47,377 nt of DNA, taken from positions 1 to 47,377 of IMG/VR virus record IMGVR_UViG_3300032282_002907; one strand, given 5' to 3'. Source of the DNA: a virus. Positions 326 to 21,094 of this stretch are shown here, one piece after another; the stretch's first letter is position 1, and each line of letters opens with the position of its first letter. The position numbers and the translations under genes were made by a program. The notes below the pieces were generated by a model. It worked only from the letters and a program-made list of their open reading frames with translations, was not told the DNA's origin and did not search any database.

Positions 326-1081
326 ATGGCTACTTCTAAATCTATGGACTTTCCTGCTTCAAAATCCTCTAGCTATGCCGATAAAGTTAAAAATGAAAAT
401 AGTCAAATAGATAATACTGTTTATATTCCTGTTCCTGGTCCGCAGGGTGAAAAAGGATATCCAGGTAAAGATGGATTAGCAGGCCCAGAAGGACCACAAG
501 GACCAAGGGGTGAACGTGGAATCCAGGGTAAAGATGGAAAAGACGGTAAGCCAGGTCCACAAGGACCTAAAGGGGATCCTGGACAAGTAGAGTCAATACT
601 TAATACATATGGACAATCATCTGGATGGGCAAACTATGATAGTTTAACTAAACAACCATTAAGAGTTGGAGCAAATAGAGGCATAGACGGATGGGTAAAT
701 TTATCTGTTGATGGTTTAGGTGATAATACAAATGAGTTATATCTTCCAACTAATAAAGTATCCCTATACAGTACAGAATCTCAAAAAATCAATTTTAAAA
801 GTTTAAAACTAGGCTCAAGGGTAGATGTGGTTTACAACTTAACAATAGAGACTTTTAATAATAACACAGAAATATGGTTTAGGTCTCTTTTTGCAAATGA
901 AGAAGATAGTTTTATTACCTTTGTAGCATCTTTAAAATATCAACATGTTTATGATCTATCTACAACACATACCTTTTTTATCAATAATGAGAAAATGAAA
1001 ATATTTGGCATTACCCCTCAAATAAGGTCTGATTTAGAAGCTATGGCTACCTTAAATTCTATCTACATTTCAATATCTTGA
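326..1081 (+). CDS. Collagen-like phage fibre protein
   Basis: 251 residues. Residues 38-86 form sixteen uninterrupted Gly-X-Y triplets. Proline is frequent in X, and GYP, GKP and GDP put proline in the Y position, the site hydroxylated in collagens. The rest is a non-repetitive beta-rich domain with no family I recognise. Collagen-like segments in phages typically form trimeric stalks in tail fibres, so an extended trimeric fibre on the virion is likely. The start is set by a -10 element six bases upstream with no ribosome site, suggesting leaderless translation. Seven prolyl-hydroxylase-like genes lie 13-20 kb downstream. The stop at 1081 slightly precedes the next promoter. Confidence 0.85.
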
Positions 1082-3236: not shown

Positions 3237-4604
3237 ATGCTGGGGGTAATAGGCCTATTGGCATCATCATCACAACAAATACCCCTTAATGTTACAGGAT
3301 TATCTGCAATAGACGTTGGAACTCTTAGACCATACTTACTAACCGCTAATACTACTTCAACAATTTCAGCATCAGGAACTGGTGGAGCAGTATCTCTTGT
3401 TTGGACATTACCAACTAACTCACCTGCAGCAACATCTTATACAATTACTACAACTCCATCTACATATACTGTTATAACTGGATCTTCAACACCGTCTTAT
3501 ATTTTTCAAGGACTTGCTTCAAATGTTTCTTATACATTTACTGTAATAGCTACAAACTCTTCTGGATCTTCATCAGGAACTACCTCTTCTTCTGCAACAT
3601 CAACTACAGTTCCTGCTCAAATGTCTGCTCCAACCCCAACAGCTGGAGTTAATCAAAACTCTATTGCCTTTACAGCTCCGATTAACGGCGGTAAGACTAT
3701 TACTGGATACACAGTAAATGGTTCTGATTCGACTACTGGAACAGGTGCTACATCTCCAATACTTATTTCTGATACTGGTGGAACATCACAGACTTATACA
3801 GTTAGAGCAACTAATGCTAATGGTACTTCTATTGCATCTCCTGCATCTATTTCTATTACCACTACGCCTCCATTCTTCCCGCCATTCTTCCCACCATACT
3901 TCCCATTCTTCCCGCCATTCTTCCCACCATTCTTCCCATATTTCCCTCCTGCACCAACAATTTCTAATCTTTCCTACACAGCAACAGGTGAAACAACTGG
4001 AACCCTTACTTTTACAACAACTGCTGAAACAATATTATTTACAGGCAGTGCAACAAATTATCCATCACCATATAATTATGGAGCCTATACATCTTATACA
4101 CCATCATCACCTTCAACTGGTTGGGGAGGAAGACTCGTTGCAATGACGCAGGGGCAGTCATATACTGTTTCTGTTACAGTTTCTCCAGGTGCAGCAAGTC
4201 AAACAATTACATTTACTCATTCTTACATTGTTTCACCATTCTTCCCGCCATTCTTCCCACCATACTTCCCATTCTTCCCGCCATTCTTCCCATACTTTTC
4301 TATAGGAACACCAGCTACACCATCAAATGTTTCAGTAAGTCCTAGTGGATCTGTATCTTGGACAGCATCATTATCTGGTCCAACAGCAACAAGCTTTTTA
4401 GTTCAGTACTATTTAGCTCAAGATGCCAGCGGAACAAATTCTTCTGGTCCTTATTATTCATCACCTGACGCTGATTCATCTCCTTATCAGATACCATACT
4501 CATCACCTAATAACTGGGCAAGAGCAAGAGTAGCTGCAAGAGGAGCAGATGATACACTATCATCTTATTCATCATGGTTCCCATCAGCTTCAACATATAT
4601 TTAA
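3237..4604 (+). CDS. FN3 adhesin with two FFPP aromatic-proline repeat blocks
   Basis: 455 residues. Residues about 15-205 contain two fibronectin-III-like domains with typical 'YTFTVIATNSSG' and 'GKTITGYTV' strands. Residues 211-238 and 334-354 are almost pure Phe/Pro/Tyr in FFPP and FFP units. A beta domain (about 240-330) lies between them and an FN3-like domain follows. The first 210 residues are clearly paralogous to the protein at 12033, including a 66-bp stretch identical at DNA level. The FFPP blocks probably act as stiff or sticky linkers between adhesin domains. It ends just before a bidirectional terminator. No strong ribosome site precedes the start. FN3 domains in phage structural proteins generally bind surface carbohydrates weakly. 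Confidence 0.8.
   Translation: MLGVIGLLASSSQQIPLNVTGLSAIDVGTLRPYLLTANTTSTISASGTGGAVSLVWTLPTNSPAATSYTITTTPSTYTVITGSSTPSYIFQGLASNVSYTFTVIATNSSGSSSGTTSSSATSTTVPAQMSAPTPTAGVNQNSIAFTAPINGGKTITGYTVNGSDSTTGTGATSPILISDTGGTSQTYTVRATNANGTSIASPASISITTTPPFFPPFFPPYFPFFPPFFPPFFPYFPPAPTISNLSYTATGETTGTLTFTTTAETILFTGSATNYPSPYNYGAYTSYTPSSPSTGWGGRLVAMTQGQSYTVSVTVSPGAASQTITFTHSYIVSPFFPPFFPPYFPFFPPFFPYFSIGTPATPSNVSVSPSGSVSWTASLSGPTATSFLVQYYLAQDASGTNSSGPYYSSPDADSSPYQIPYSSPNNWARARVAARGADDTLSSYSSWFPSASTYI
3602..3667 (+). repeat. 66-bp direct repeat, copy 1
   Basis: This stretch is identical base for base to 12404-12469 and encodes 'TTVPAQMSAPTPTAGVNQN' and adjoining residues in the FN3 region of both FFPP proteins. 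The flanking sequence has diverged, which points to recent gene conversion or recombination. Confidence 0.9.
3870..3950 (+). repeat. FFPP repeat block 1 (coding)
   Basis: A pyrimidine-rich tandem array of units such as TTCTTCCCACCA (FFPP) and TTCTTCCCA (FFP), in frame in the gene at 3237. Some units carry TAC for Phe-to-Tyr. Confidence 0.95.
4236..4298 (+). repeat. FFPP repeat block 2 (coding)
   Basis: Second array in the gene at 3237, with the same unit order at its start as block 1 (FFPPFFPPYFPFFPP). The two blocks were probably duplicated together with a linker domain. Confidence 0.95.
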
Positions 4605-4665: not shown

Positions 4666-5214
4666 TTAATTAGGAAAGCGACTCATCCACATTTTTGTTT
4701 TAGCTGTAATTCCATGCCAAGCAGACCAATCTTTTCCACCACCTGACATATGAAATGCAATTTGTGCATTAATGACAGGATTTAACAAATCTGAATTAGA
4801 AACAAGATCAAACTTATCTCTTCGTTCAGGACCTAATGAGCTAATCATATTTATTTGAAAGATGCCATAAGAACTGTCTCCAGTTTTAACATTTCCATTA
4901 AATCTAATTGGCTGTCCATTAGATTCTTTTTTGGCTACTGCCCAAGCTTCCTTTAGATTGTTGCCCCTAAAGCCAACAAGGTATAAAAGTTCCTTAAGTT
5001 CACCATCGGTTAAAAAACCTTTATTTTCAAACTTTTTTAATTTTTCTTCCGTAGAAACACTTAAAGCCTCTTGCGAGGCTGAATCTACGGGTACTACAAT
5101 TTCCGTACTTATATTATTGCGTTCACTAGCATTAGCAACATTTAAACCTTGTGCTACCATTACTATAATCGTGAGTATGCCGATGAGTTTTTGTTTATCT
5201 TGTGTTATGTTCAT
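4666..5214 (-). CDS. Secreted lysozyme / transglycosylase-like protein
   Basis: 182 residues. Residues 9-29 are a hydrophobic signal segment ending in an A-N-A cleavage motif. The C-terminal half has a lysozyme-like (SLT/transglycosylase) pattern: catalytic-type Glu97 in 'AVAKKESNG', then 'TGDSSYGIFQINM' and a 'GGKDWSAWHG' end. It likely cleaves peptidoglycan glycan chains outside the membrane, as a lysis or secreted cell-wall enzyme. It is the only gene on the minus strand. It has its own sigma70-type promoter, a leader hairpin and a strong AAGGAGG site six bases before ATG. This isolated orientation and the signal peptide suggest acquisition from a host. The alternative is a phage endolysin exported by Sec. 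Confidence 0.75.
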   Translation of the reverse strand: MNITQDKQKLIGILTIIVMVAQGLNVANASERNNISTEIVVPVDSASQEALSVSTEEKLKKFENKGFLTDGELKELLYLVGFRGNNLKEAWAVAKKESNGQPIRFNGNVKTGDSSYGIFQINMISSLGPERRDKFDLVSNSDLLNPVINAQIAFHMSGGGKDWSAWHGITAKTKMWMSRFPN

Positions 5215-12032: not shown

Positions 12033-13109
12033 ATGGCAAAAAAGGCTGGAAGACATTCACAACAAGCGAATGACTTTTTGCAACCCCTTGATGTCACAAG
12101 TTTAACAGCTACTGATGTTGGAACAGCTCGGCCCTATTTAGCTACCGCAAATACTACTTCTGCAGCTTCTGCAGCAAATACAGGAGCCGCTGTAAGCCTT
12201 TCCTGGACCCTTCCAGCGCTGTCCCCAGCAGCAACTACTTATATAATTACTACTACTCCAGCAACTTATACTTGGGATACTGGATCTGCAACAACTTCAG
12301 CCACTTTTCAGGGACTTGCTTCAAATACAGCATATACATTTACAGTTAAAGCATCTAATAATTCAGGAACAGCAACTGGAACTACTTCAGGATCAGTAAC
12401 AGTAACTACAGTTCCTGCTCAAATGTCTGCTCCAACCCCAACAGCTGGAGTTAATCAAAACTCTATTGCTTTTTCAGCACCAGCAACTGGTGGAAAATCA
12501 ATTACTGGATATACAGTAACAGGATCTGATGCAACATCTGGCACAGGAGCATCATCTCCAATTGTAATTTCAGATACTGCTGGCACTTCACAAACTTATA
12601 CAGTTACTGCCACTAATGCTAATGGAACTTCTGCTGCCTCAGTTGCATCTGGATCTATTACTACTTTATCACCATTCTTCCCCCCATTTTTCCCGCCGTT
12701 CTTCCCATTCTTCCCATTCTTCCCACCGTTCTTCCCACCTTTCTTCCCATTCTTCCCACCATTCTTCCCACCTTTCTTCCCATTCTTCCCATTCTTCCCA
12801 CCGTTCTTCCCACCTTTCTTCCCGTTCTTCCCACCCTTCTTCCCACCATACTTCCCATTCTTCCCATTCTTCCCACCGTTCTTCCCACCTTTCTTCCCGT
12901 TCTTCCCACCTTTCTTCCCACCTTTCTTCCCACCTTTCTTCCCACCTTTCTTCCCAAGTTTTGTAGTTTATAGATTCTGTACAACTTCAAACGTAACAAA
13001 CGGACAGTGTCCTACTGGTTGCGGTAACAAGTGTGGTGCTGGTTCAGGCAGTACCTGTGGAGCATTACAATATGGAAATGGTAGCGTACCTTGCGATTCA
13101 GGCTTCTAA
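12033..13109 (+). CDS. FN3 adhesin with long FFPP stalk and Cys-rich cap
   Basis: 358 residues. Two FN3-like domains occupy about residues 20-210 and are close paralogues of those in the gene at 3237. Residues 214-308 are an almost pure array of FFPP and FFP units with a single Tyr. The last 50 residues switch abruptly to a Cys-rich piece with six cysteines ('RFCTTSNVTNGQCPTGCGNK' and on to 'VPCDSGF'), unlike anything else in the fibre cluster. A reasonable model is an adhesin head, a hydrophobic stalk and a disulfide- or metal-stabilised cap. The ribosome site is AAGGGAG. The minus-strand frame across the repeat is an artefact of its composition. Confidence 0.82.
   Translation: MAKKAGRHSQQANDFLQPLDVTSLTATDVGTARPYLATANTTSAASAANTGAAVSLSWTLPALSPAATTYIITTTPATYTWDTGSATTSATFQGLASNTAYTFTVKASNNSGTATGTTSGSVTVTTVPAQMSAPTPTAGVNQNSIAFSAPATGGKSITGYTVTGSDATSGTGASSPIVISDTAGTSQTYTVTATNANGTSAASVASGSITTLSPFFPPFFPPFFPFFPFFPPFFPPFFPFFPPFFPPFFPFFPFFPPFFPPFFPFFPPFFPPYFPFFPFFPPFFPPFFPFFPPFFPPFFPPFFPPFFPSFVVYRFCTTSNVTNGQCPTGCGNKCGAGSGSTCGALQYGNGSVPCDSGF
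12404..12469 (+). repeat. 66-bp direct repeat, copy 2
   Basis: Identical to 3602-3667. It lies at the FN3-1/FN3-2 junction of the second FFPP gene. Confidence 0.9.
12672..12956 (+). repeat. FFPP repeat block 3 (long, coding)
   Basis: About 285 bp of 12-bp (FFPP) and 9-bp (FFP) units, in higher-order groups such as FFPPFFPPFFPFFP. The wobble base of Pro varies (CCA, CCG, CCT, CCC) while TTC is nearly fixed. Confidence 0.95.
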
Positions 13110-13537: not shown

Positions 13538-13771
13538 ATGTCAGAAAAAAGTGCATGGCAAAAATATAAAGAAAAAAATGGCGCAACTCCCTTAGATATG
13601 CTTAATCCAAATACAAAACGCATACCTGATGAAGACGCTCAAAAAAGATTTGATATTTGTAACACTTGCCCAGAACTAATTAAAGTAACCTCTCAATGCA
13701 AACAATGTGGTTGTTTTATGAAAGTTAAAACCAAATTAGAAATTGCTAAATGCCCAATAGGTAAATGGTAG
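13538..13771 (+). CDS. Small Cys-rich (zinc-ribbon-like) phage protein
   Basis: 77 residues. The C-terminal part has 'CNTCPEL', then 'CKQCGCFMKVKTKLEIAKCP' and 'GKW', giving CxxC and CxxC pairs plus extra cysteines suitable for binding a metal. This pattern is widespread in small phage proteins (I would place it with DUF6171-like sequences; the assignment is from memory). The function is unknown. It has its own promoter and GGAGA site. It opens the oxygenase block, whose first member uses a near-identical promoter, so the two may be co-regulated. Confidence 0.65.
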   Translation: MSEKSAWQKYKEKNGATPLDMLNPNTKRIPDEDAQKRFDICNTCPELIKVTSQCKQCGCFMKVKTKLEIAKCPIGKW

Positions 13772-13805
13772 CCCTTGCTAATTTTTGATTAAAATAGCAT
13801 CTTTA

Positions 13806-13814
13806 TGCTATAAT
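13806..13814 (+). promoter_or_regulatory. Extended -10 promoter of the oxygenase block
   Basis: TGC-TATAAT 30 bases upstream of ATG 13845. The leader includes an AGGA ribosome site. It is the likely main promoter for the 13845-16708 gene run. Confidence 0.65.
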
Positions 13815-13844
13815 AAAGTTATACCACTTAAAGATAGGAATTTT

Positions 13845-14555
13845 ATGAATACTTATGATGAAAATGATAATCCTTGGTTTACCAAAGATAGATCAGAAAC
13901 AGCTTCAAAAAGAATTGCAAGACTAATGCCTCAAAGTAATATTAGTGTTAGTAATCCAGGTTTAGGTTTAAATATTTATCATAATGTTTTTTCTAAAGAT
14001 GATTCCGAAAGATACATCGACACACTTGAGCATAATTTATCAGGAGATAAGAAGTATAAATGGTCAGAGGCTAAAGTAACAAACTCCGATGCTCCAATTA
14101 AAAAAGCAAGAGATTGTGTAGATTTTAAATACAAGCAAGAAAACCTTGGACCAAGAGATGAACATAATGGTGATCTAATTGATTTACATGAAGAGATATA
14201 TCAAAAGTTAAAACTATGCATTGATGATTATGCACATTATTGGGGTATTAATGTTACATATTACGAAGCGTTTAACTTTGTAAAATATGAAGGAGAAGGA
14301 ACTCACTTTAATATTCATGCTGATCATGGTCCTGCTTACAACTGTACAGTATCTGCTGTTATTTATATTAACGATGATTATGAAGGAGGAGAAATTAAGT
14401 TTCCAAGATTAGATAACTTTGTTCATACTCCAAAAGTTGGTGATATAGCTATATTCCCTTCAAACTATATTTATGAGCATGCATCGCTGCCAATGAAAAA
14501 AGGTACAAAATATTGTGTTGTTATTATGACAGATATTAATGAACTGAGTCATTAA
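13845..14555 (+). CDS. 2OG-Fe(II) oxygenase, prolyl-4-hydroxylase-like (1 of 7)
   Basis: 236 residues from ATG 13845. A frame opens earlier at 13785 but crosses the promoter and is rejected. The double-stranded beta-helix core shows His158 and Asp160 (HxD), distal His212 and Lys222 as the 2-oxoglutarate anchor, with the family signature 'INDDYEGGEIKFP'. Such enzymes couple 2OG decarboxylation to hydroxylation of a side chain, often proline. All metal and cosubstrate residues are intact, so it should be active. Its closest relative here is the gene at 15336, including the 'EAFNF.KY' segment. It overlaps the next gene by one base (TAATG). The substrate is unknown. Confidence 0.85.
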   Translation: MNTYDENDNPWFTKDRSETASKRIARLMPQSNISVSNPGLGLNIYHNVFSKDDSERYIDTLEHNLSGDKKYKWSEAKVTNSDAPIKKARDCVDFKYKQENLGPRDEHNGDLIDLHEEIYQKLKLCIDDYAHYWGINVTYYEAFNFVKYEGEGTHFNIHADHGPAYNCTVSAVIYINDDYEGGEIKFPRLDNFVHTPKVGDIAIFPSNYIYEHASLPMKKGTKYCVVIMTDINELSH

Positions 14556-15325
14556 TGAATATGTTAGCGATATTTAAATCTTTTAGACCTTGGTTAAATA
14601 AAGATAGTTTTTCTGTTCCAGCACCAACACAAAGTGTTATTCCTCAATGGTATAAAGATGCAGATAGGTTTGCTAAAAATCCAATTAATAATGAATATTA
14701 TAAAGCACCCAAAGAAACCTGTCCATTTCCCAAAGAAGGAACTGTAGATGATTACGGAAAAATTCCTACATGGAAAGCGTGTCCAGCAATTATGGATGCA
14801 TTTTCAACTGGATATGTTTTTAAAACCCCCTGCGATTTAACATTTTTTAAAAACTCACAAGGAATTATTAATGTAAAGATTGAAGACAAAAGATATCAAG
14901 ATTTTTGTACTCAAAGACCTTCAATGCCACAGTTTGAGCATCCATTAGGGTATTACAAGCATCACTTTGCTTGGAGTTCAGACTGGGGACTTGAACTTCC
15001 TGAAGGATATAGTGCTTTATTCATGACACCAATGAATAGGTTTGATCTTCCATTCTTAAATACAACAGGAATTGTTGACTCAGATAAGGTTCACTTGCTT
15101 GGAAGTTTTCCATTTTTTATTGCAGAAGGTTGGGAAGGAACAATCCCAGCAGGAACACCATATTTACAAGTCTTGCCATTCAAAAGAGAAAACTGGGAAA
15201 GTAAAATAGAAATATTAGGACAATCTGAGATCTATGATAAAATGTTTAACAACATGAAGTTTTATAGACAGCCTGACGGCGGAGTGTATAAAAATAAAGT
15301 TTGGTCAAGAAGAGAATACAAATAA
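14555..15325 (+). CDS. DUF6065-like phage protein (copy 1)
   Basis: 256 residues. It starts in a TAATG overlap with the upstream oxygenase. Patterns include 'PSMPQFEHPLGYY', 'WGLELPEGYSALFMTPMNRF' and 'GTIPAGTPYLQVLPFKRENW', which I associate with the DUF6065 family from phages (a tentative recall). The 'P.G.S....P.NR.' and 'I.AGTP..Q..PF' strands suggest a beta-barrel. Its function is unknown. It is a distant relative of the gene at 15992, and each copy sits directly after an oxygenase, which suggests the pair acts together. It may bind or present the hydroxylated product. Confidence 0.6.
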   Translation: MNMLAIFKSFRPWLNKDSFSVPAPTQSVIPQWYKDADRFAKNPINNEYYKAPKETCPFPKEGTVDDYGKIPTWKACPAIMDAFSTGYVFKTPCDLTFFKNSQGIINVKIEDKRYQDFCTQRPSMPQFEHPLGYYKHHFAWSSDWGLELPEGYSALFMTPMNRFDLPFLNTTGIVDSDKVHLLGSFPFFIAEGWEGTIPAGTPYLQVLPFKRENWESKIEILGQSEIYDKMFNNMKFYRQPDGGVYKNKVWSRREYK

Positions 15326-15335
15326 GGAGAATAAA

Positions 15336-15992
15336 GTGAAAACATGGACAGAAAAAATAGACCTTGGAAATGGAATATATGTTTACAAGGGTGTAATTAA
15401 AAAAGAAATTGATGTAATAAAAAGAATTGAAGATAACCTTAAACCAGAAGGAGACAATACTGGTTATAGCTGGCAGCCTGCCTATGTTGGATATAAACAA
15501 CTTATGCCAGATTACAGAGATTGCAATGATTTTAAGTTCAAGAAAACAGATCTTGAAAATGATAAAAGCGAAGTTAGTTTAAATCTTCAATCTCTTTGGC
15601 AAGATCTATATGACGTAAAATCTCCAGCAGTAGAAGATTATTGCAAAATGTATAATATTAATAATTTAAAATATTGGGAAGCTTTTAATTTTATTAAATA
15701 TGGTAAAGGTCAACATTTTATGGAACACCATGACCATGGTTTTTCTTATAACTGTACTGTATCTTTAGTTTCATATGTTAATGATGACTACGAAGGTGGA
15801 GAGCTTTTCTTTAGACTACAGAACTTAAAAGTTAAAGCAGAGGCTGGAGATTTGTTTATTTTTCCATCAAACTTTATGTATCCTCATCAAGCAATGCCAG
15901 TAACTTCAGGAACTAAATACTCTATTGTTACCATGCTTGACTATAGCAAAAAGTTTCACACTCCAGAAATGTATAGTGCAGAGGCAGACTAA
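15336..15992 (+). CDS. 2OG-Fe(II) oxygenase, prolyl-4-hydroxylase-like (2 of 7)
   Basis: 218 residues, GTG start with AAGGAGA about six bases upstream. Metal ligands His131, Asp133 and His184 and the 2OG-binding Lys194 are visible, with the signature 'VNDDYEGGELFF'. It is a close paralogue of the gene at 13845 over most of its length ('WEAFNFIKYGKGQHF', 'SYNCTVSLVSYVNDDYEGGE', 'SGTKYSIVTM'). The oxygenase plus DUF6065-like pair has therefore been duplicated in tandem. It overlaps the next gene by one base. The substrate is unknown. Confidence 0.85.
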   Translation: MKTWTEKIDLGNGIYVYKGVIKKEIDVIKRIEDNLKPEGDNTGYSWQPAYVGYKQLMPDYRDCNDFKFKKTDLENDKSEVSLNLQSLWQDLYDVKSPAVEDYCKMYNINNLKYWEAFNFIKYGKGQHFMEHHDHGFSYNCTVSLVSYVNDDYEGGELFFRLQNLKVKAEAGDLFIFPSNFMYPHQAMPVTSGTKYSIVTMLDYSKKFHTPEMYSAEAD

Positions 15993-16708
15993 TGTTTAAT
16001 ATCTCAGTTGAAAAAACACAAGGAGCTTTATTTGATATTAAGCCTATGTCAATTAAAAGAGATTGGATGGATGTAACATCAGAGGGCCATGCTTATAGAT
16101 GTTTTCCAGTAACCCAATCAAATGTAATTGGTTGGAGCCTTTCTTGTGTAAAAGATATTGAGTTTATTTGGGATGGAGTTAATGACCAAACTCCAGATCA
16201 TGTTCAAGTTTTTAGTCCAAATGGAGCTTATGGTGGAAGAGGTCAATCTTCTATAAGTTTAAACACTGGTTTAATTTTTCGAACAGATATGGATGTGAGT
16301 ATTTTTACTATTAATCCAGTAAATTATTTTAGTGATGAGTTTGAAACAATGTCTTCTTTAATTAGTACTTCTTTTTATGACAACCCTTTGCCTTTAGCTA
16401 TTAAAGCAAAAATTGCAAATAAAAAAGTAGTAATTAAATCTGGAACACCAGTTGCTACAATTATTCCTATATCATTATCAAATTTGAATGGTACAAATAT
16501 TCAAATTGTTGAATATCAAGATCCAGATAGAAAAAGACTTGAGGCTAATATTTCTTATGGATCTGCTGCTCAAAAAATAAATTCTACTGGAAAATGGACA
16601 GATTGGTATAGAGATGCTATAAATGAAAAAGAAGAATCTCAAGGTTCTCACGAAGTAAAAACATTAAAATTAGGTGTAATTGATAATACGAAAGGTGATA
16701 TAATATAA
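15992..16708 (+). CDS. DUF6065-like phage protein (copy 2)
   Basis: 238 residues in TAATG overlap with the upstream oxygenase. It shares with the gene at 14555 a core of 'IGWSLSCVKDIEFIWDG', 'SLNTGLIFRTDMDVSIFTIN', 'P.NYF' and 'KSGTPVATIIPISL'. Divergence is high, so the duplication is old or each copy has a different ligand. No catalytic residues are obvious. Its last codons (GAT ATA ATA TAA) contain the -10 element of the next gene, so the coding end and the promoter are superimposed. Confidence 0.55.
   Translation: MFNISVEKTQGALFDIKPMSIKRDWMDVTSEGHAYRCFPVTQSNVIGWSLSCVKDIEFIWDGVNDQTPDHVQVFSPNGAYGGRGQSSISLNTGLIFRTDMDVSIFTINPVNYFSDEFETMSSLISTSFYDNPLPLAIKAKIANKKVVIKSGTPVATIIPISLSNLNGTNIQIVEYQDPDRKRLEANISYGSAAQKINSTGKWTDWYRDAINEKEESQGSHEVKTLKLGVIDNTKGDII
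16696..16704 (+). promoter_or_regulatory. Extended -10, leaderless, inside the end of the upstream gene
   Basis: TGA-TATAAT followed by exactly six bases to ATG 16711. It overlaps the last codons of the gene at 15992. Confidence 0.65.
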
Positions 16709-16710
16709 AA

Positions 16711-17391
16711 ATGCAATCAAATAAAGATTCTTATACAGTAGTCAAAAGAACACCATCTATAACTCCATCTGGATGGTTTGGAGATAGCAAAGACATGATT
16801 GTTGAGTTAGAAAATTTTATGACCCAAGAAGAAATAGAATTTTTAGAAAAAGCTGCTAAATCTTTAACAATTTGGGATGTCACCGAAAGCCATATGAATG
16901 AAAATGGAACTGTTACATATGACTCAGATTATTGGAAAGATAGGGTTGCAACTAGTCCAACATTAAATAAAAATGATCCAACTATTGCACCAGTAATTGC
17001 TGGTCTGTTTGAAAGATTAAAACCAATTGTTGAAGAATTTTATAAAGTAGAAGTTATTCCAACTGGGACAACTATTGTTAAATGGCTTCCTGGACAATTT
17101 CAAAAACCTCATGCAGATAAAGAATTACATGAAGGACCTGATGCTGGAACACCTAATGATTTTCCAAACTATGATCTTTCAAGTTTGTTTTATTTAAATG
17201 ATGACTATGAGGGTGGGGAATTATATTTTCCATTACAAGGAGTTCAGTTTAAACCTAAAAAGGGTGCTGCTTATTTTTTCCCAGGCGACAAAAACTATAT
17301 TCATGGAGTTACAGAAATAAAAAGTGGTTTAAGATTTACCTGTCCATTCTTCTGGGAAATAACTAAACATACAGGAGACAGACAGCCATGA
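16711..17391 (+). CDS. 2OG-Fe(II) oxygenase, prolyl-4-hydroxylase-like (3 of 7)
   Basis: 226 residues with a leaderless start. His134, Asp136, His198 and Arg208 form the expected iron and 2OG site; Arg replaces the Lys of oxygenases 1 and 2. The core 'LFYLNDDYEGGELYFPLQGV' with 'FKPKKGAAYFFPGD' is the classic phage P4H-like pattern. Being separately promoted, it may be expressed independently of the first two. It overlaps the following oxygenase by four bases (ATGA), suggesting strong coupling. A protein-hydroxylase role is inferred from the family; the substrate is unknown. Confidence 0.87.
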   Translation: MQSNKDSYTVVKRTPSITPSGWFGDSKDMIVELENFMTQEEIEFLEKAAKSLTIWDVTESHMNENGTVTYDSDYWKDRVATSPTLNKNDPTIAPVIAGLFERLKPIVEEFYKVEVIPTGTTIVKWLPGQFQKPHADKELHEGPDAGTPNDFPNYDLSSLFYLNDDYEGGELYFPLQGVQFKPKKGAAYFFPGDKNYIHGVTEIKSGLRFTCPFFWEITKHTGDRQP

Positions 17392-18272
17392 CATATCCCT
17401 TGGTAGATAGCAATCTTGAGGCAATAGAAATATATCCTCATATTCTTGTATATAAAAATCTTTTTAAAGATATTTCAAAATCTTATAAAGTTTTAACAGA
17501 TTCTTTTGTAGAAACAGAAGATAGACTTTTTACTAATTGGACACAATGGTCTATTTTTGGAGACTACCTTAATCCAATTATTCCTGGTTTTTCTATGTCA
17601 GATAAATACGGAAATTTAAAAAATATAGAAGCAAAAACACCAATTCAAGAAGATCAAAAGAATTTTGGCATAGAAATGATGGAAAATTTTCATTTAGTTA
17701 CAGAAGATTATATTAAAAGATATAACATTGATGTAGATTTAAATGCAACTGCTATTGATGAAGATGGTAACACTATTCCTACTTGGAGATGGACAGGTGG
17801 AACAATAGGTAAGTATCACATTAGTACTAGTGATCAAGAAGTTGGAATGAGATATCATTCAGATTATCAAAGAGAACAAGGTTCATCCCCAGGTTATAAA
17901 TTTGTAATAACATGCACAATATATTTTAATGATGATTATGAGGGTGGAGAGATTGATTTTGCAATGGGTGACAATCTTGTAAAGTATAAGCCAGAAGCAG
18001 GAGATCTATTAGTTTTCCCATCAGGGCATCCAGAGTATCTTACAGAAGATGGAATGCCATATCTACATGGTGTTATGCCATCATATAATAAAAATAAAAT
18101 TTTATCAAGAATGTATTGGCAAAAATATCAAAAAGGAACTGATGAATGGTATGCAAAAGAAAACGAATTTGGAAAAAAAGTTTGGGCCAGCATGCAACCA
18201 GCATTAGAGGAACAATTTAGAAAAGACCATCCTCAAAGAACTACAATAGAAAATGGAGTAAGAATACAATGA
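17388..18272 (+). CDS. 2OG-Fe(II) oxygenase (4 of 7), long form
   Basis: 294 residues, the longest of the set. His157, Asp159 and His227 form the metal triad. The basic 2OG anchor is probably Lys237 or Arg241 in 'NKNKILSRMYW'. The signature 'YFNDDYEGGEIDF' is intact. An 'EVGMRYHSDYQREQ' segment surrounds the HxD motif. The C-terminal 50 residues are charged and helical. It overlaps both neighbours by four bases (ATGA), so genes 3 to 5 form a coupled run. Its divergence from the other six suggests a separate substrate. Confidence 0.83.
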   Translation: MTYPLVDSNLEAIEIYPHILVYKNLFKDISKSYKVLTDSFVETEDRLFTNWTQWSIFGDYLNPIIPGFSMSDKYGNLKNIEAKTPIQEDQKNFGIEMMENFHLVTEDYIKRYNIDVDLNATAIDEDGNTIPTWRWTGGTIGKYHISTSDQEVGMRYHSDYQREQGSSPGYKFVITCTIYFNDDYEGGEIDFAMGDNLVKYKPEAGDLLVFPSGHPEYLTEDGMPYLHGVMPSYNKNKILSRMYWQKYQKGTDEWYAKENEFGKKVWASMQPALEEQFRKDHPQRTTIENGVRIQ

Positions 18273-19027
18273 ATCTAAATGATAAAATTAGACTAACAAA
18301 AGATATTGTTGTTTATAAAAATTTTATAAATAAAGAAGATTGCAAGAAAATGATTCAAGCCTTAGATGCTCAAGCAGACAATGGTGCACTTTCTTGGATG
18401 CCTATTTCATTTTATGAATCTTATTCTTCAGTATTGCCACAAGATAACGATAAAGAATTAATTGATGCTAAACTATCTCCAACTATATTTTCAGACATTG
18501 AAAAAACAATGCCAGAGGCAATTGCTTCAGTTCATGACCTTGATCCAAAAACAATTTCTAAGATTGGATACCATACACAAAAGTGGGAGCCAGGAGCATA
18601 TGCAAGAGTGCACTCAGATAATACAGATGCTGAAGGTAATTCAGGTGCATTTACAAGAAGCCGTTATGCAGGATTTCTATATTTAAATGATGATTTTCAA
18701 GGAGGGCTACTTAAGTTTCCAAGTCAAGATATAGAAATTAAACCAGAAGCTGGAATGCTTGCTGTTTTTGATGGGGGATTTAATAATATGCATGAAGTAT
18801 CATTAATAGAAAGTGGAGTAAGATACACTATAGGATCTTTCTGGGACGACAGAGAAGAAGATGCTTACCCACAAGAACTAAGAGATGCCTGGGCTGCAGA
18901 AATGAAAGAGACAAGAGCAAAGCAAGAAATTGAAAGAGCCGAATGGCAAGAACTTTTAAAAGAAGGCTGGAAATTAGATGATAAAGGTAATAAGTATAAA
19001 GTAGAAGAATTGGGAAAAAATGTCTAA
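18269..19027 (+). CDS. 2OG-Fe(II) oxygenase (5 of 7)
   Basis: 252 residues. His115, Asp117, His175 and Arg185 are in place. The signature is altered to 'LNDDFQGGLLKFP', losing the usual Glu after GG, so the active-site rim differs. The pattern 'YARVHSDNTDAEGNSGAFTR' around HxD and 'MHEVSLIESGVRYTIGSFW' near the distal His is typical of P4H-like enzymes. A charged helical tail of about 50 residues ('KQEIERAEWQELLKEGWKL') follows. It overlaps the next gene by eight bases. The substrate is unknown. Confidence 0.83.
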   Translation: MNLNDKIRLTKDIVVYKNFINKEDCKKMIQALDAQADNGALSWMPISFYESYSSVLPQDNDKELIDAKLSPTIFSDIEKTMPEAIASVHDLDPKTISKIGYHTQKWEPGAYARVHSDNTDAEGNSGAFTRSRYAGFLYLNDDFQGGLLKFPSQDIEIKPEAGMLAVFDGGFNNMHEVSLIESGVRYTIGSFWDDREEDAYPQELRDAWAAEMKETRAKQEIERAEWQELLKEGWKLDDKGNKYKVEELGKNV

Positions 19028-19679
19028 TTTTCTAACCGACATACTAAAAGAAAATAATTTTCAGATTGAAGAAGTCACTAATGATATTGTTTTAATTAAA
19101 GATTTTATTTCTGATAATGAATTAAAACAAATATTTGAAATTATAAATTCAACCCCAGATGAAGAATGGTTTATTGAATATTTGTCTAATTTAAAAAGAT
19201 TTTGTTTTCAAAAATTTGGCAGAGACGATGTTGATAATTTAGTTGCTGAAGGCAAATTTGAAATAACTCAAAACTGGCAAGATAAAAATTTAAATATAGG
19301 AAAATATTTATTTCAAAAAGTAATATATGATAGACTAAATGATTTAGTTCAAGTAGTTGATAATACAATAGAGTTAAGCGGTTTTGCTACAATTCAAAGA
19401 ATGCAAGAAGGAGTTGAGCTAAAAGCTCATACAGATCAAGATACAGATCCATCAATTAGATATGCTGCTATTTTATATTTAAATGATGACTATGTTGATG
19501 GAGAGCTATTCTTTCCAATTAATGGTTTAGAGTTTAAACCAAAACCTGGAACAATGCTTATTTTTCCAGGTAATTCAGAATATAATCATGGAGTAAAACA
19601 TGTAGGTCCTGGACCGATTAGATATGTTTTAGTTGGGTTTATTAAAGAAAAAGGATTTTATGAAAATAATAGATACTAA
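19020..19679 (+). CDS. 2OG-Fe(II) oxygenase (6 of 7)
   Basis: 219 residues. His137, Asp139, His190 and Arg201 form the site, with 'YLNDDYVDGELFFPINGLEF' as the signature and 'GTMLIFPGNSEYNHGV' before the distal His. The N-terminal 110 residues form a helical and beta cap with no detectable partner elsewhere in the window. It starts inside the end of the previous oxygenase. A GGAGAT ribosome site for the next gene follows its stop. Activity is likely; the substrate is unknown. Confidence 0.84.
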   Translation: MSNFLTDILKENNFQIEEVTNDIVLIKDFISDNELKQIFEIINSTPDEEWFIEYLSNLKRFCFQKFGRDDVDNLVAEGKFEITQNWQDKNLNIGKYLFQKVIYDRLNDLVQVVDNTIELSGFATIQRMQEGVELKAHTDQDTDPSIRYAAILYLNDDYVDGELFFPINGLEFKPKPGTMLIFPGNSEYNHGVKHVGPGPIRYVLVGFIKEKGFYENNRY

Positions 19680-19690
19680 AGGAGATATAA

Positions 19691-20425
19691 ATGAATAAAG
19701 AAATACTAGACCCAAAGGTATATTACTATACAGATGCAATTGAAGATTTTGACAATTTTAAAAAAGTTTGGAAAGAGTTAGATACCCTTCAACAATATGC
19801 TGATTCAGGGGTAAATGTTTGGAATCCCTGGACATCTTCAAATGATAAAACTTTTATTTATGGAGAAACAAAAACATTTGACATTAATGCAATAAATAAT
19901 ACTCCTGGTGAAGTGGGAGAAAAAAGCAAATATATGTACGATGCTGTTATGACTGCACTATATGATGTTTGTAAAGATTATGCAACTTCTTTAGGTGATT
20001 TTGATGAGCCAAGACTTTTTCCAACCTTTAATATAAAAAAATATAATACTGGAATGGGAATGGGTGCACATTTTGATCAATTAGACGGTGATAAAACTTT
20101 AAGATATTCCCTTGTAATGTATTTAAATGATGATTGTGAAGGCGGAGAGATATCCTTTCAATTAAAAGATTATGATGGCGGATGGACAAGTACTGATGGC
20201 TTTTCCAAAGGATCAGCCCCAGCAGTTGATTTAGATTATGATATATCTGTTGCAAATGGTGCAATTGATTTTGGATTAAAGCCAAAAGCAAATAGTGTAG
20301 TTATATTTCCAGCATTTCCACCATATTTTCATACAGCCCACACTGTAAAATCTGGTTTTAAGTACATGGTTCCTGGGCATTGGATTCATAATGGAATGGA
20401 TCTTAATAAATCACAGAGTATGTAA
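19691..20425 (+). CDS. 2OG-Fe(II) oxygenase (7 of 7), with insertion
   Basis: 244 residues, GGAGAT ribosome site. His127, Asp129, His217 and Lys224 are present and 'MYLNDDCEGGEISFQL' is the signature. An insertion of about 30 residues (roughly 161-193, Gly/Ser/Asp-rich) sits between strands near the active-site mouth. Such loops often determine substrate choice in this family. The stop is immediately followed by ATG of the SDR gene with no gap, so the two are translated together and may act on the same molecule. Confidence 0.84.
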   Translation: MNKEILDPKVYYYTDAIEDFDNFKKVWKELDTLQQYADSGVNVWNPWTSSNDKTFIYGETKTFDINAINNTPGEVGEKSKYMYDAVMTALYDVCKDYATSLGDFDEPRLFPTFNIKKYNTGMGMGAHFDQLDGDKTLRYSLVMYLNDDCEGGEISFQLKDYDGGWTSTDGFSKGSAPAVDLDYDISVANGAIDFGLKPKANSVVIFPAFPPYFHTAHTVKSGFKYMVPGHWIHNGMDLNKSQSM

Positions 20426-21094
20426 ATGAAAACAGCAATAGTTACAGGTGCTAGCAAAGGCGTAGGATTAGCAACAGTCAAATACTTATCTGAAAATGGT
20501 TACAAGGTTATTGCTGTTTCAAGAAATCTGTCTAAAGTTTCTCAGATAGTATCTGATAATGTTGAAGTCTATCAGTTAGATATTACAGACTCTAAAGCAA
20601 TAGAGGAATTTGCTGAAAAATATAAAGATATTACTTTAGATCTTTTAGTCAATAATGCTGGTGGTGGCTCAGGTCCTACTTATATTATTAATGAAACTCC
20701 AGAAAATTTTAGAAAAGCCTATGACATAAACGTAACTGGTCCAATGTACTTATCTCAATTATTTGTACCATCTATGGAAAAGTCGCAGTCTCCAACTATT
20801 ATTTTTATTACATCTTTTGGTGGAAAAGTTCCTTATCGTGGTGGAGGAAACTATACAAATGCTAAAAGAGGAGAAAGAGGTTTAATTGATACAATGAGGC
20901 TTGAATTCCCTCAGTTTGGAATTAAGATTACAGAAATCTGCCCAGCTACTATTGATACGCAGGAAGAAAAAAGGGATCAGGCATTAACTGCTGAAGATTT
21001 AGCACAAGCAATTTACTGGGTTGGATCTTTACCAAGTCATGTTAATATTAATCAAATTGAGATGTGTCATATCCACAGTAGCAAGTATGGTTAA
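20426..21094 (+). CDS. Short-chain dehydrogenase/reductase
   Basis: 222 residues. The Rossmann motif TGASKGVG (residues 7-14), NNAG (76-79) and the catalytic Ser130, Tyr143 and Lys147 ('YTNAK') are all visible, so it is a classical SDR. Members oxidise or reduce alcohols or carbonyls with NAD(P)H. Its position at the end of the oxygenase run, with zero-base spacing, suggests it oxidises or reduces a product of those enzymes, or acts in sugar or nucleotide metabolism. It is slightly short compared with typical SDRs of about 250 residues. The substrate cannot be inferred. A weak hairpin follows. Confidence 0.85.
   Translation: MKTAIVTGASKGVGLATVKYLSENGYKVIAVSRNLSKVSQIVSDNVEVYQLDITDSKAIEEFAEKYKDITLDLLVNNAGGGSGPTYIINETPENFRKAYDINVTGPMYLSQLFVPSMEKSQSPTIIFITSFGGKVPYRGGGNYTNAKRGERGLIDTMRLEFPQFGIKITEICPATIDTQEEKRDQALTAEDLAQAIYWVGSLPSHVNINQIEMCHIHSSKYG

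Follow-up and report, generated by a model that had tools for sequence, protein, structure and literature searches.

A Phe-Pro repeat fiber followed by an oxygenase cassette

We have analyzed a 47,377-bp virus record of IMG/VR (IMGVR_UViG_3300032282_002907; "the window" means this whole stretch of DNA), which we regard as a water-borne virus of bacteria. In it an array of 2-oxoglutarate (2OG)/Fe(II) oxygenase genes lies just downstream of the gene for a fiber protein with a long Phe-Pro repeat (here FFPP, after its commonest unit). The most likely reading, and to us a probable one, is that of a phage cassette hydroxylating its own Phe-Pro repeat fiber. Nine nearly overlapping genes on the same strand occupy positions 13785-20425, namely seven oxygenases of the family PF13640 (O1 to O7) and two members of DUF6065 (D1 and D2). 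They follow the order O1-D1-O2-D2-O3-O4-O5-O6-O7, and after them come a short-chain dehydrogenase and a ribonucleotide reductase (RNR) gene. The initial annotation had listed seven oxygenase genes in 13845-20425, all of which are confirmed, but had missed the two interleaved DUF6065 genes. It had also proposed a multi-enzyme system acting on FFPP and collagen-like fibers; the FFPP repeat does co-occur with the oxygenases, while the collagen-like protein does not.

The repeat protein encoded at 12033-13109 carries a 97-residue run of FFPP/FFP units. The FFPP arrays previously noticed here and in the protein at 3237-4604 are real, and their residue positions have been mapped (Table 1). A DNA pattern for FFPPFFPPFFP, searched in viral contigs, retrieved at least 119 stretches, and the FFPP frame was open in every one of these loci from other contigs. 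The xFPP unit is strict, with the second F invariant in 702/702 units that had a free choice and with x being F, Y, H or W. The array consists of xFPP and xFP units, or of FF[SA]PP in relatives. In several FN3 fibers (L696, L705, L710, L715, L717, L726 and L733) xFF[SA]PP replaces xFPP, and some of them extend C-terminally with further sequence. A short peptide stand-in for the repeat of the 12033-13109 protein is FFPPFFPPFFPFFPP. Phe is encoded by TTC in 71/76 codons of the FFPP arrays in these two proteins of the window and in 66/474 of its other genes; 134 arrays of other contigs follow the same trend (2766 TTC vs 459 TTT). This TTC richness, opposite to the bias of the other genes, would avoid slippery TTTTTT runs.

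Co-occurrence of the repeat and the oxygenases

Among 48 records sampled by FFPP, from among the matches listed, 45 carried PF13640 genes and 34 at least six of them. Neutral samples were obtained by picking contigs with an RNR motif (41 records) and with a collagen motif (47 records). At least six PF13640 genes were found in 7/7 FFPP-positive vs 1/34 FFPP-negative records of the RNR sample (Fisher 3.6e-7, uncorrected for relatedness), and the lone exception, G073, is truncated on the side where FFPP would lie. The survey of related phages suggested by the initial annotation thus came out very strongly in favor of FFPP. Similarly, in a sample of capsid relatives, the five FFPP-positive records (four by the strict pattern, G003 by translation) hold 4-7 PF13640 copies, and only one of the 15 others, G010, holds at least four. 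Cellular genomes (257 Gb) contained only four stretches with long FFPP arrays, all with an oxygenase and/or DUF6065 within a few kb; all four are in contigs of metagenome-assembled genomes and may well be phage. The order FFPP-O1-D1-O2-D2-O3 recurs in the relatives, with FFPP directly upstream of the cassette.

The comparison can be made at a single slot, the region from the fiber "l" to RNR, in those relatives where it is visible. When the slot holds an FFPP protein there are at least four oxygenases downstream (9/9). When it holds a homologous FN3 protein without FFPP units, 38-52% identical to that of the window, there are none (0 oxygenases in 13/13, 11 of them non-redundant). The RNR tree requires at least seven switches of the array state, counted on well-supported branches. 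One of the FN3 fibers without FFPP (L581:5133-6386) has a weak C-terminal match to Hint, an intein-like domain (0.011, below the cut-off).

At least three phage backbones that are unrelated to each other have FFPP arrays directly upstream of an oxygenase cassette: the Stanwilliamsviridae-like one of the window, the contractile-tail phages G034/G038, and G031. The contractile-tail phages keep the order FFPP-oxygenases-DUF6065 with a different sheath, an unrelated portal and a different RNR (32% identical in G038). G031 and G057 have a minimal form, FFPP-Z-DUF6065-DUF6065-..., with one oxygenase (Z is a small Cys-rich protein). In the oxygenase tree the contractile-tail members fall inside the O2/O1 and O3 branches, indicating that O2, O3 and DUF6065 are the shared core. 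The FFPP cassettes of other lineages (L472, L480, L482, L497 and similar) also hold glutathione-peroxidase-like, TauD, sulfotransferase, Asp/Asn hydroxylase and 2OG-FeII_Oxy_5 genes.

We have also examined the association in reverse, sampling contigs by the core oxygenase O2. In close O2 orthologs with at least 3 kb visible, an xFPP array was located 1.7-2.8 kb upstream on the same strand in 46/46. Distant orthologs (43-64% identity to the scanned query, 5 kb visible) had xFPP within 5 kb in 32/46, and nearly all of the remaining 14 were directly preceded by a sister F/P repeat (GFFSPPGFFAPP or PFFPSFCP, for example); in L671 the repeat was 6.6 kb away from O2. Counted as F/P-rich open reading frames (ORFs) at most 5 kb upstream of O2, the values were 36/36 for close and 35/43 for distant orthologs, over a background of 5/561 random 5-kb stretches.

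Within the cassette, the presence of O1 follows the grammar of the repeat. Among non-redundant cassettes of the lineage of the window, O1 was present in 26/26 arrays with single-Pro xFP steps vs 1/11 without them (Fisher 3e-8, uncorrected), a match that is a strong lead and not a pre-planned test because the definition of the repeat classes was widened after the first pass. The O2 tree implies at least three changes of repeat type. O1 is present in L732, whose array has xFP steps amid the other clade, and absent from L083, whose array has none despite its place in the xFP clade.

Family and fold of the oxygenases

The seven ORFs match the PF13640 (2OG-FeII_Oxy_3) profile with 35.9-52.1 bits (gathering cut-off 27). 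That all seven keep the HxD...H iron triad and a Lys/Arg 2OG anchor, as had been noted earlier, was borne out by a residue check (HxD, distal H and K/R intact in 7/7). Among 235 family members of related contigs conservation was practically complete: H 234/234, D 235/235, distal H 234/234 and R/K 234/234. These residues were scored by alignment columns, because counting a lenient HxD...H motif alone discriminates poorly and passes 114/235 shuffled sequences. O2-O7 are only 19-43% identical to O1, therefore the array is not a recent tandem expansion. In a tree built together with the enzymes of related phages, O1-O7 fall into classes that are found again in one phage after another (13 label changes vs 101 in shuffles).

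A search of the PDB with a profile of the seven enzymes retrieved the prolyl 4-hydroxylase (P4H) of Bacillus anthracis (5hv0, 3itq) as the best match (6.5e-13), as well as prolyl 3-hydroxylase 1 and PHD2. The predicted model of O2 (mean confidence, pLDDT, 93) was most similar to an algal P4H solved with a (Ser-Pro)5 peptide (3gze; Z 19.9, root-mean-square deviation 2.2, 175 aligned residues). Further matches of the model were the PHDs (Z 18-19.7), the Pseudomonas putida P4H solved with EF-Tu (4iw3) and a Chlorella virus enzyme (5c5t, Z 17.5). As far as the model goes, the fold of O2 is closest to the peptidyl-prolyl hydroxylases, a shared fold being no proof of function. Among isolated phages the best named relatives of O2 and O3 are the cyanophage PHROG 61 oxygenases, of the same superfamily and at most about 38% identical over part of the length.

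A proposed hydroxylation of the repeat

The catalytic residues are intact, the O2 model has a P4H-like fold, and the repeat is specifically linked to the enzymes and co-varies with them. From these data we infer that the repeat is the substrate and that hydroxyproline would be the product, carried on the virion. An FN3-based receptor-binding or tail-fiber protein would carry the long Phe-Pro array, and the 2OG/Fe(II) oxygenases encoded just downstream would bind it as an extended peptide, like prolyl 4-hydroxylases do on (Ser-Pro)n. Many positions may be hydroxylated, mainly prolines and perhaps aromatic side chains too, with O2 and O3 as the core enzymes; the single-Pro xFP steps would be where, or the reason why, O1 acts. 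Once hydroxylated, a stretch that is very hydrophobic and prone to aggregate might become soluble and stiff, a hydrogen-bonding rod similar to polyproline II, and DUF6065 would be a helper, either a scaffold or a substrate handler. A more detailed version, which we put forward only tentatively, is that the oxygenases divide the Phe-Pro unit among themselves, one position or step to each (e.g., O1 the xFP step, O2 plus O3 the xFPP core). Repeat pattern and enzyme set would then be passed on together like a code, and the product would be a rod with dense hydroxylation and a dedicated helper of dUTPase fold.

Several observations weigh against a fiber-modifying cassette. Three FFPP-positive records (G025, G051 and G056, fragments of 19-38 kb) show no PF13640 gene, and one O2 cassette (L730) has no visible F/P repeat. 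An empty slot is not the same as an oxygenase-free genome, since the array is found elsewhere in L340, L318 and L262, and L580 and L581 have oxygenases outside the slot. The counts are not independent because the phages compared are partly related. Before the repeat classes were widened, the first pass for O1 had given 23/23, 5/20 and 1/9. A natural fusion of repeat and oxygenase was sought and none was found. Finally, a mini-module of O3, O2 and DUF6065 without FFPP exists in the relatives G006, G009, G010, G011 and G075, in several of them beside a carbamoyltransferase, and such relatives in FFPP-free phages indicate that the family can have other substrates.

This last observation speaks for the most serious alternative, that the oxygenases act on other targets (host or phage glycans, another fiber protein or a small molecule) and that the FFPP fiber is linked to them through one swappable host-adsorption cassette. 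The glutathione-peroxidase-like, TauD and sulfotransferase genes in cassettes of other lineages would also fit it. We consider it unlikely, because no oxygenases accompany the homologous FN3 fiber at this slot when it lacks the repeat, O1 comes and goes with the grammar of the array, and the nearest structures are peptide hydroxylases. Much less credible is that ordinary 2OG oxygenase auxiliary genes have just built up, being common in aquatic phages, and are functionally unrelated to the neighboring fiber. PHROG 61 oxygenases are indeed widespread in aquatic phages (PMC12774648) and PF13640 is found in FFPP-negative records too, but the rarity of F/P-rich ORFs in random stretches, compared with their frequency upstream of O2, and the recurrent gene order speak against it, as do the comparison at the single slot and the match of O1 to the repeat grammar, and we hold it to be the least probable explanation of all.

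The initial annotation had pointed to a collagen-like protein at 326 as a substrate. The protein exists (PF01391 match), its collagen domain has prolines at the Y position, and the best PDB match of the enzymes, the B. anthracis P4H, would suit analogues of collagen P4H acting on such a GXY protein. This link failed in the co-occurrence survey, where only 6/47 collagen-pattern records had any PF13640 gene and 1/47 had at least four, and the collagen-like protein was rejected as the substrate. Besides, it is FFPP and not the collagen gene that adjoins the array in relatives; L581 has a collagen-like gene and an FN3 slot without the array, and L584 a collagen-like fiber with no oxygenase in the stretch. 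We therefore give this possibility very little weight. Equally improbable is a modification of DNA or nucleotides by TET/JBP-like or nucleotide oxygenases; the initial annotation had listed nucleotides among its alternatives. The neighboring RNR, the dUTPase-like fold predicted for DUF6065 and a D1-like gene near thymidylate synthase in haloviruses might suggest it, and there are weak Tet_JBP matches (3.1e-4). No protein reaches the Tet_JBP cut-off (PF12851, best 20.5 bits vs 34.9), the structural matches are peptidyl hydroxylases, and the linkage is to the repeat fiber gene rather than to replication genes and persists where RNR and backbone differ.

Relation to known systems

If the oxygenases do hydroxylate the Phe-Pro fiber, the closest viral counterpart would be the 2OG/Fe(II) prolyl hydroxylase of the Chlorella virus PBCV-1 (vCPH, 5c5t). 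It acts on peptide substrates, at least according to a passage of PMC9301287 that cites Eriksson (1999). vCPH is a single enzyme of an algal virus, unlike the up to eleven paralogs found here in bacteriophages, beside one aromatic FFPP fiber gene and with DUF6065 partners. The algal P4H is eukaryotic, its substrate is not Phe-rich and it has no enzyme array. The P. putida P4H exemplifies bacterial protein prolyl hydroxylation, but this enzyme and that of B. anthracis are cellular, and we know of no repeat-fiber neighbor for either of them. Neither a densely hydroxylated Phe-Pro rod in any organism nor an earlier multi-enzyme hydroxylation system for a phage fiber is known to us. In the open-access literature (most subscription journals lie outside it) no report was found, among the hits listed, of FFPP arrays in phages or of a link between them and arrays of oxygenases.

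Oxygenases of the 2OG type are common in phages, and the purpose that viral P4H serve has been called cryptic (PMC9301287, PMC12774648). The locus described here names a concrete candidate substrate and a prediction for one enzyme (O1, the xFP step), which opens the question to a direct test. If the proposal is true, it would describe a new Phe-Pro repeat material, and many genes now called "auxiliary metabolic" would shift to virion maturation.

The DUF6065 genes

D2 matches PF19541 with 86.2 bits (cut-off 26.6); D1 has no Pfam match and was recognized by phrog_7084 (9.6e-34). The model predicted for D2 (pLDDT 91) is a dUTPase-like beta-clip, with Z 11.2 to dUTPases over 116-124 aligned residues. 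Neither D1 nor D2 matched the dUTPase Pfam profile at E 0.1, searching the PDB with the DUF6065 sequence yielded no useful match, D2 had no tblastn match in named phages, and we found no literature on DUF6065 in the open-access library.

DUF6065 was rejected as a strict marker of the cassette, as it also adjoins FN3 fibers without arrays. Loci with the FFPP-free mini-module, in which DUF6065 stands with O3-like and O2-like genes, are L573, L574, L575, L577 and L578 (capsid or RNR relatives); in several a carbamoyltransferase-like gene adjoins it. In haloviruses, e.g., Halorubrum tailed phage 7 (L505), a D1-like gene has thymidylate synthase and DNA polymerase B in its vicinity, and none of the genes close to it is annotated as an oxygenase. 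The DUF6065 genes of Alphaproteobacteria mostly have no PF13640-like neighbor. In 2 of about 20 alphaproteobacterial genomes DUF6065 is fused to a Cupin_8/JmjC oxygenase domain (L544:1471-3165 and L547:574-2220), an independent but weak hint that it partners with 2OG oxygenases.

Backbone and neighboring genes

The capsid protein of the window is about 42% and its portal 45-47% identical to those of Streptomyces phages such as BillNye and Annadreamy. The mechanical ORF of O1 opens with a TTG at 13785, and the in-frame ATG at 13845 is probably the true start. The features of the locus and of the other fiber genes are collected in Table 1.

Table 1. Positions of the cassette, the fiber genes and their neighbors in the window.
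Feature	Position	Strand	Remarks
Collagen-like protein	326..1081	+	PF01391; no statistical tie to the oxygenase array
Second FFPP protein, FN3-like	3237..4604	+	Two short arrays (residues 211-238, 334-354); ORF, profile, array scan
Lysozyme-like (SLT_3) gene	4666-5214	-	Between fiber genes, opposite strand; profile match
Major-tropism-determinant-like fiber (Mtd_N)	9305		Precedes the 12033 FFPP fiber; profile match
FFPP fiber protein	12033..13109	+	FN3-like N-terminal region (fn3 1.8e-9), xFPP/xFP array at residues 214-310, then a short Cys-rich tail; putative main substrate
Z, small Cys-rich protein	13538..13771	+	Recurrent beside FFPP; weak DUF6171 match, below cut-off
O1, PF13640 oxygenase	13845..14555	+	TTG-extended ORF from 13785; presence follows xFP single-Pro steps
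D1, DUF6065-like	14555..15325	+	phrog_7084
O2, PF13640 oxygenase	15336..15992	+	Core enzyme common to all lineages; P4H fold (predicted)
D2, DUF6065 (PF19541)	15992..16708	+	Predicted dUTPase-like beta-clip fold
O3, PF13640 oxygenase	16711..17391	+	Second core enzyme common across lineages
O4, PF13640 oxygenase	17388..18272	+	
O5, PF13640 oxygenase	18269..19027	+	
O6, PF13640 oxygenase	19020..19679	+	
O7, PF13640 oxygenase	19691..20425	+	
Short-chain dehydrogenase (PF00106)	20426..21094	+	Often the last gene of the cassette

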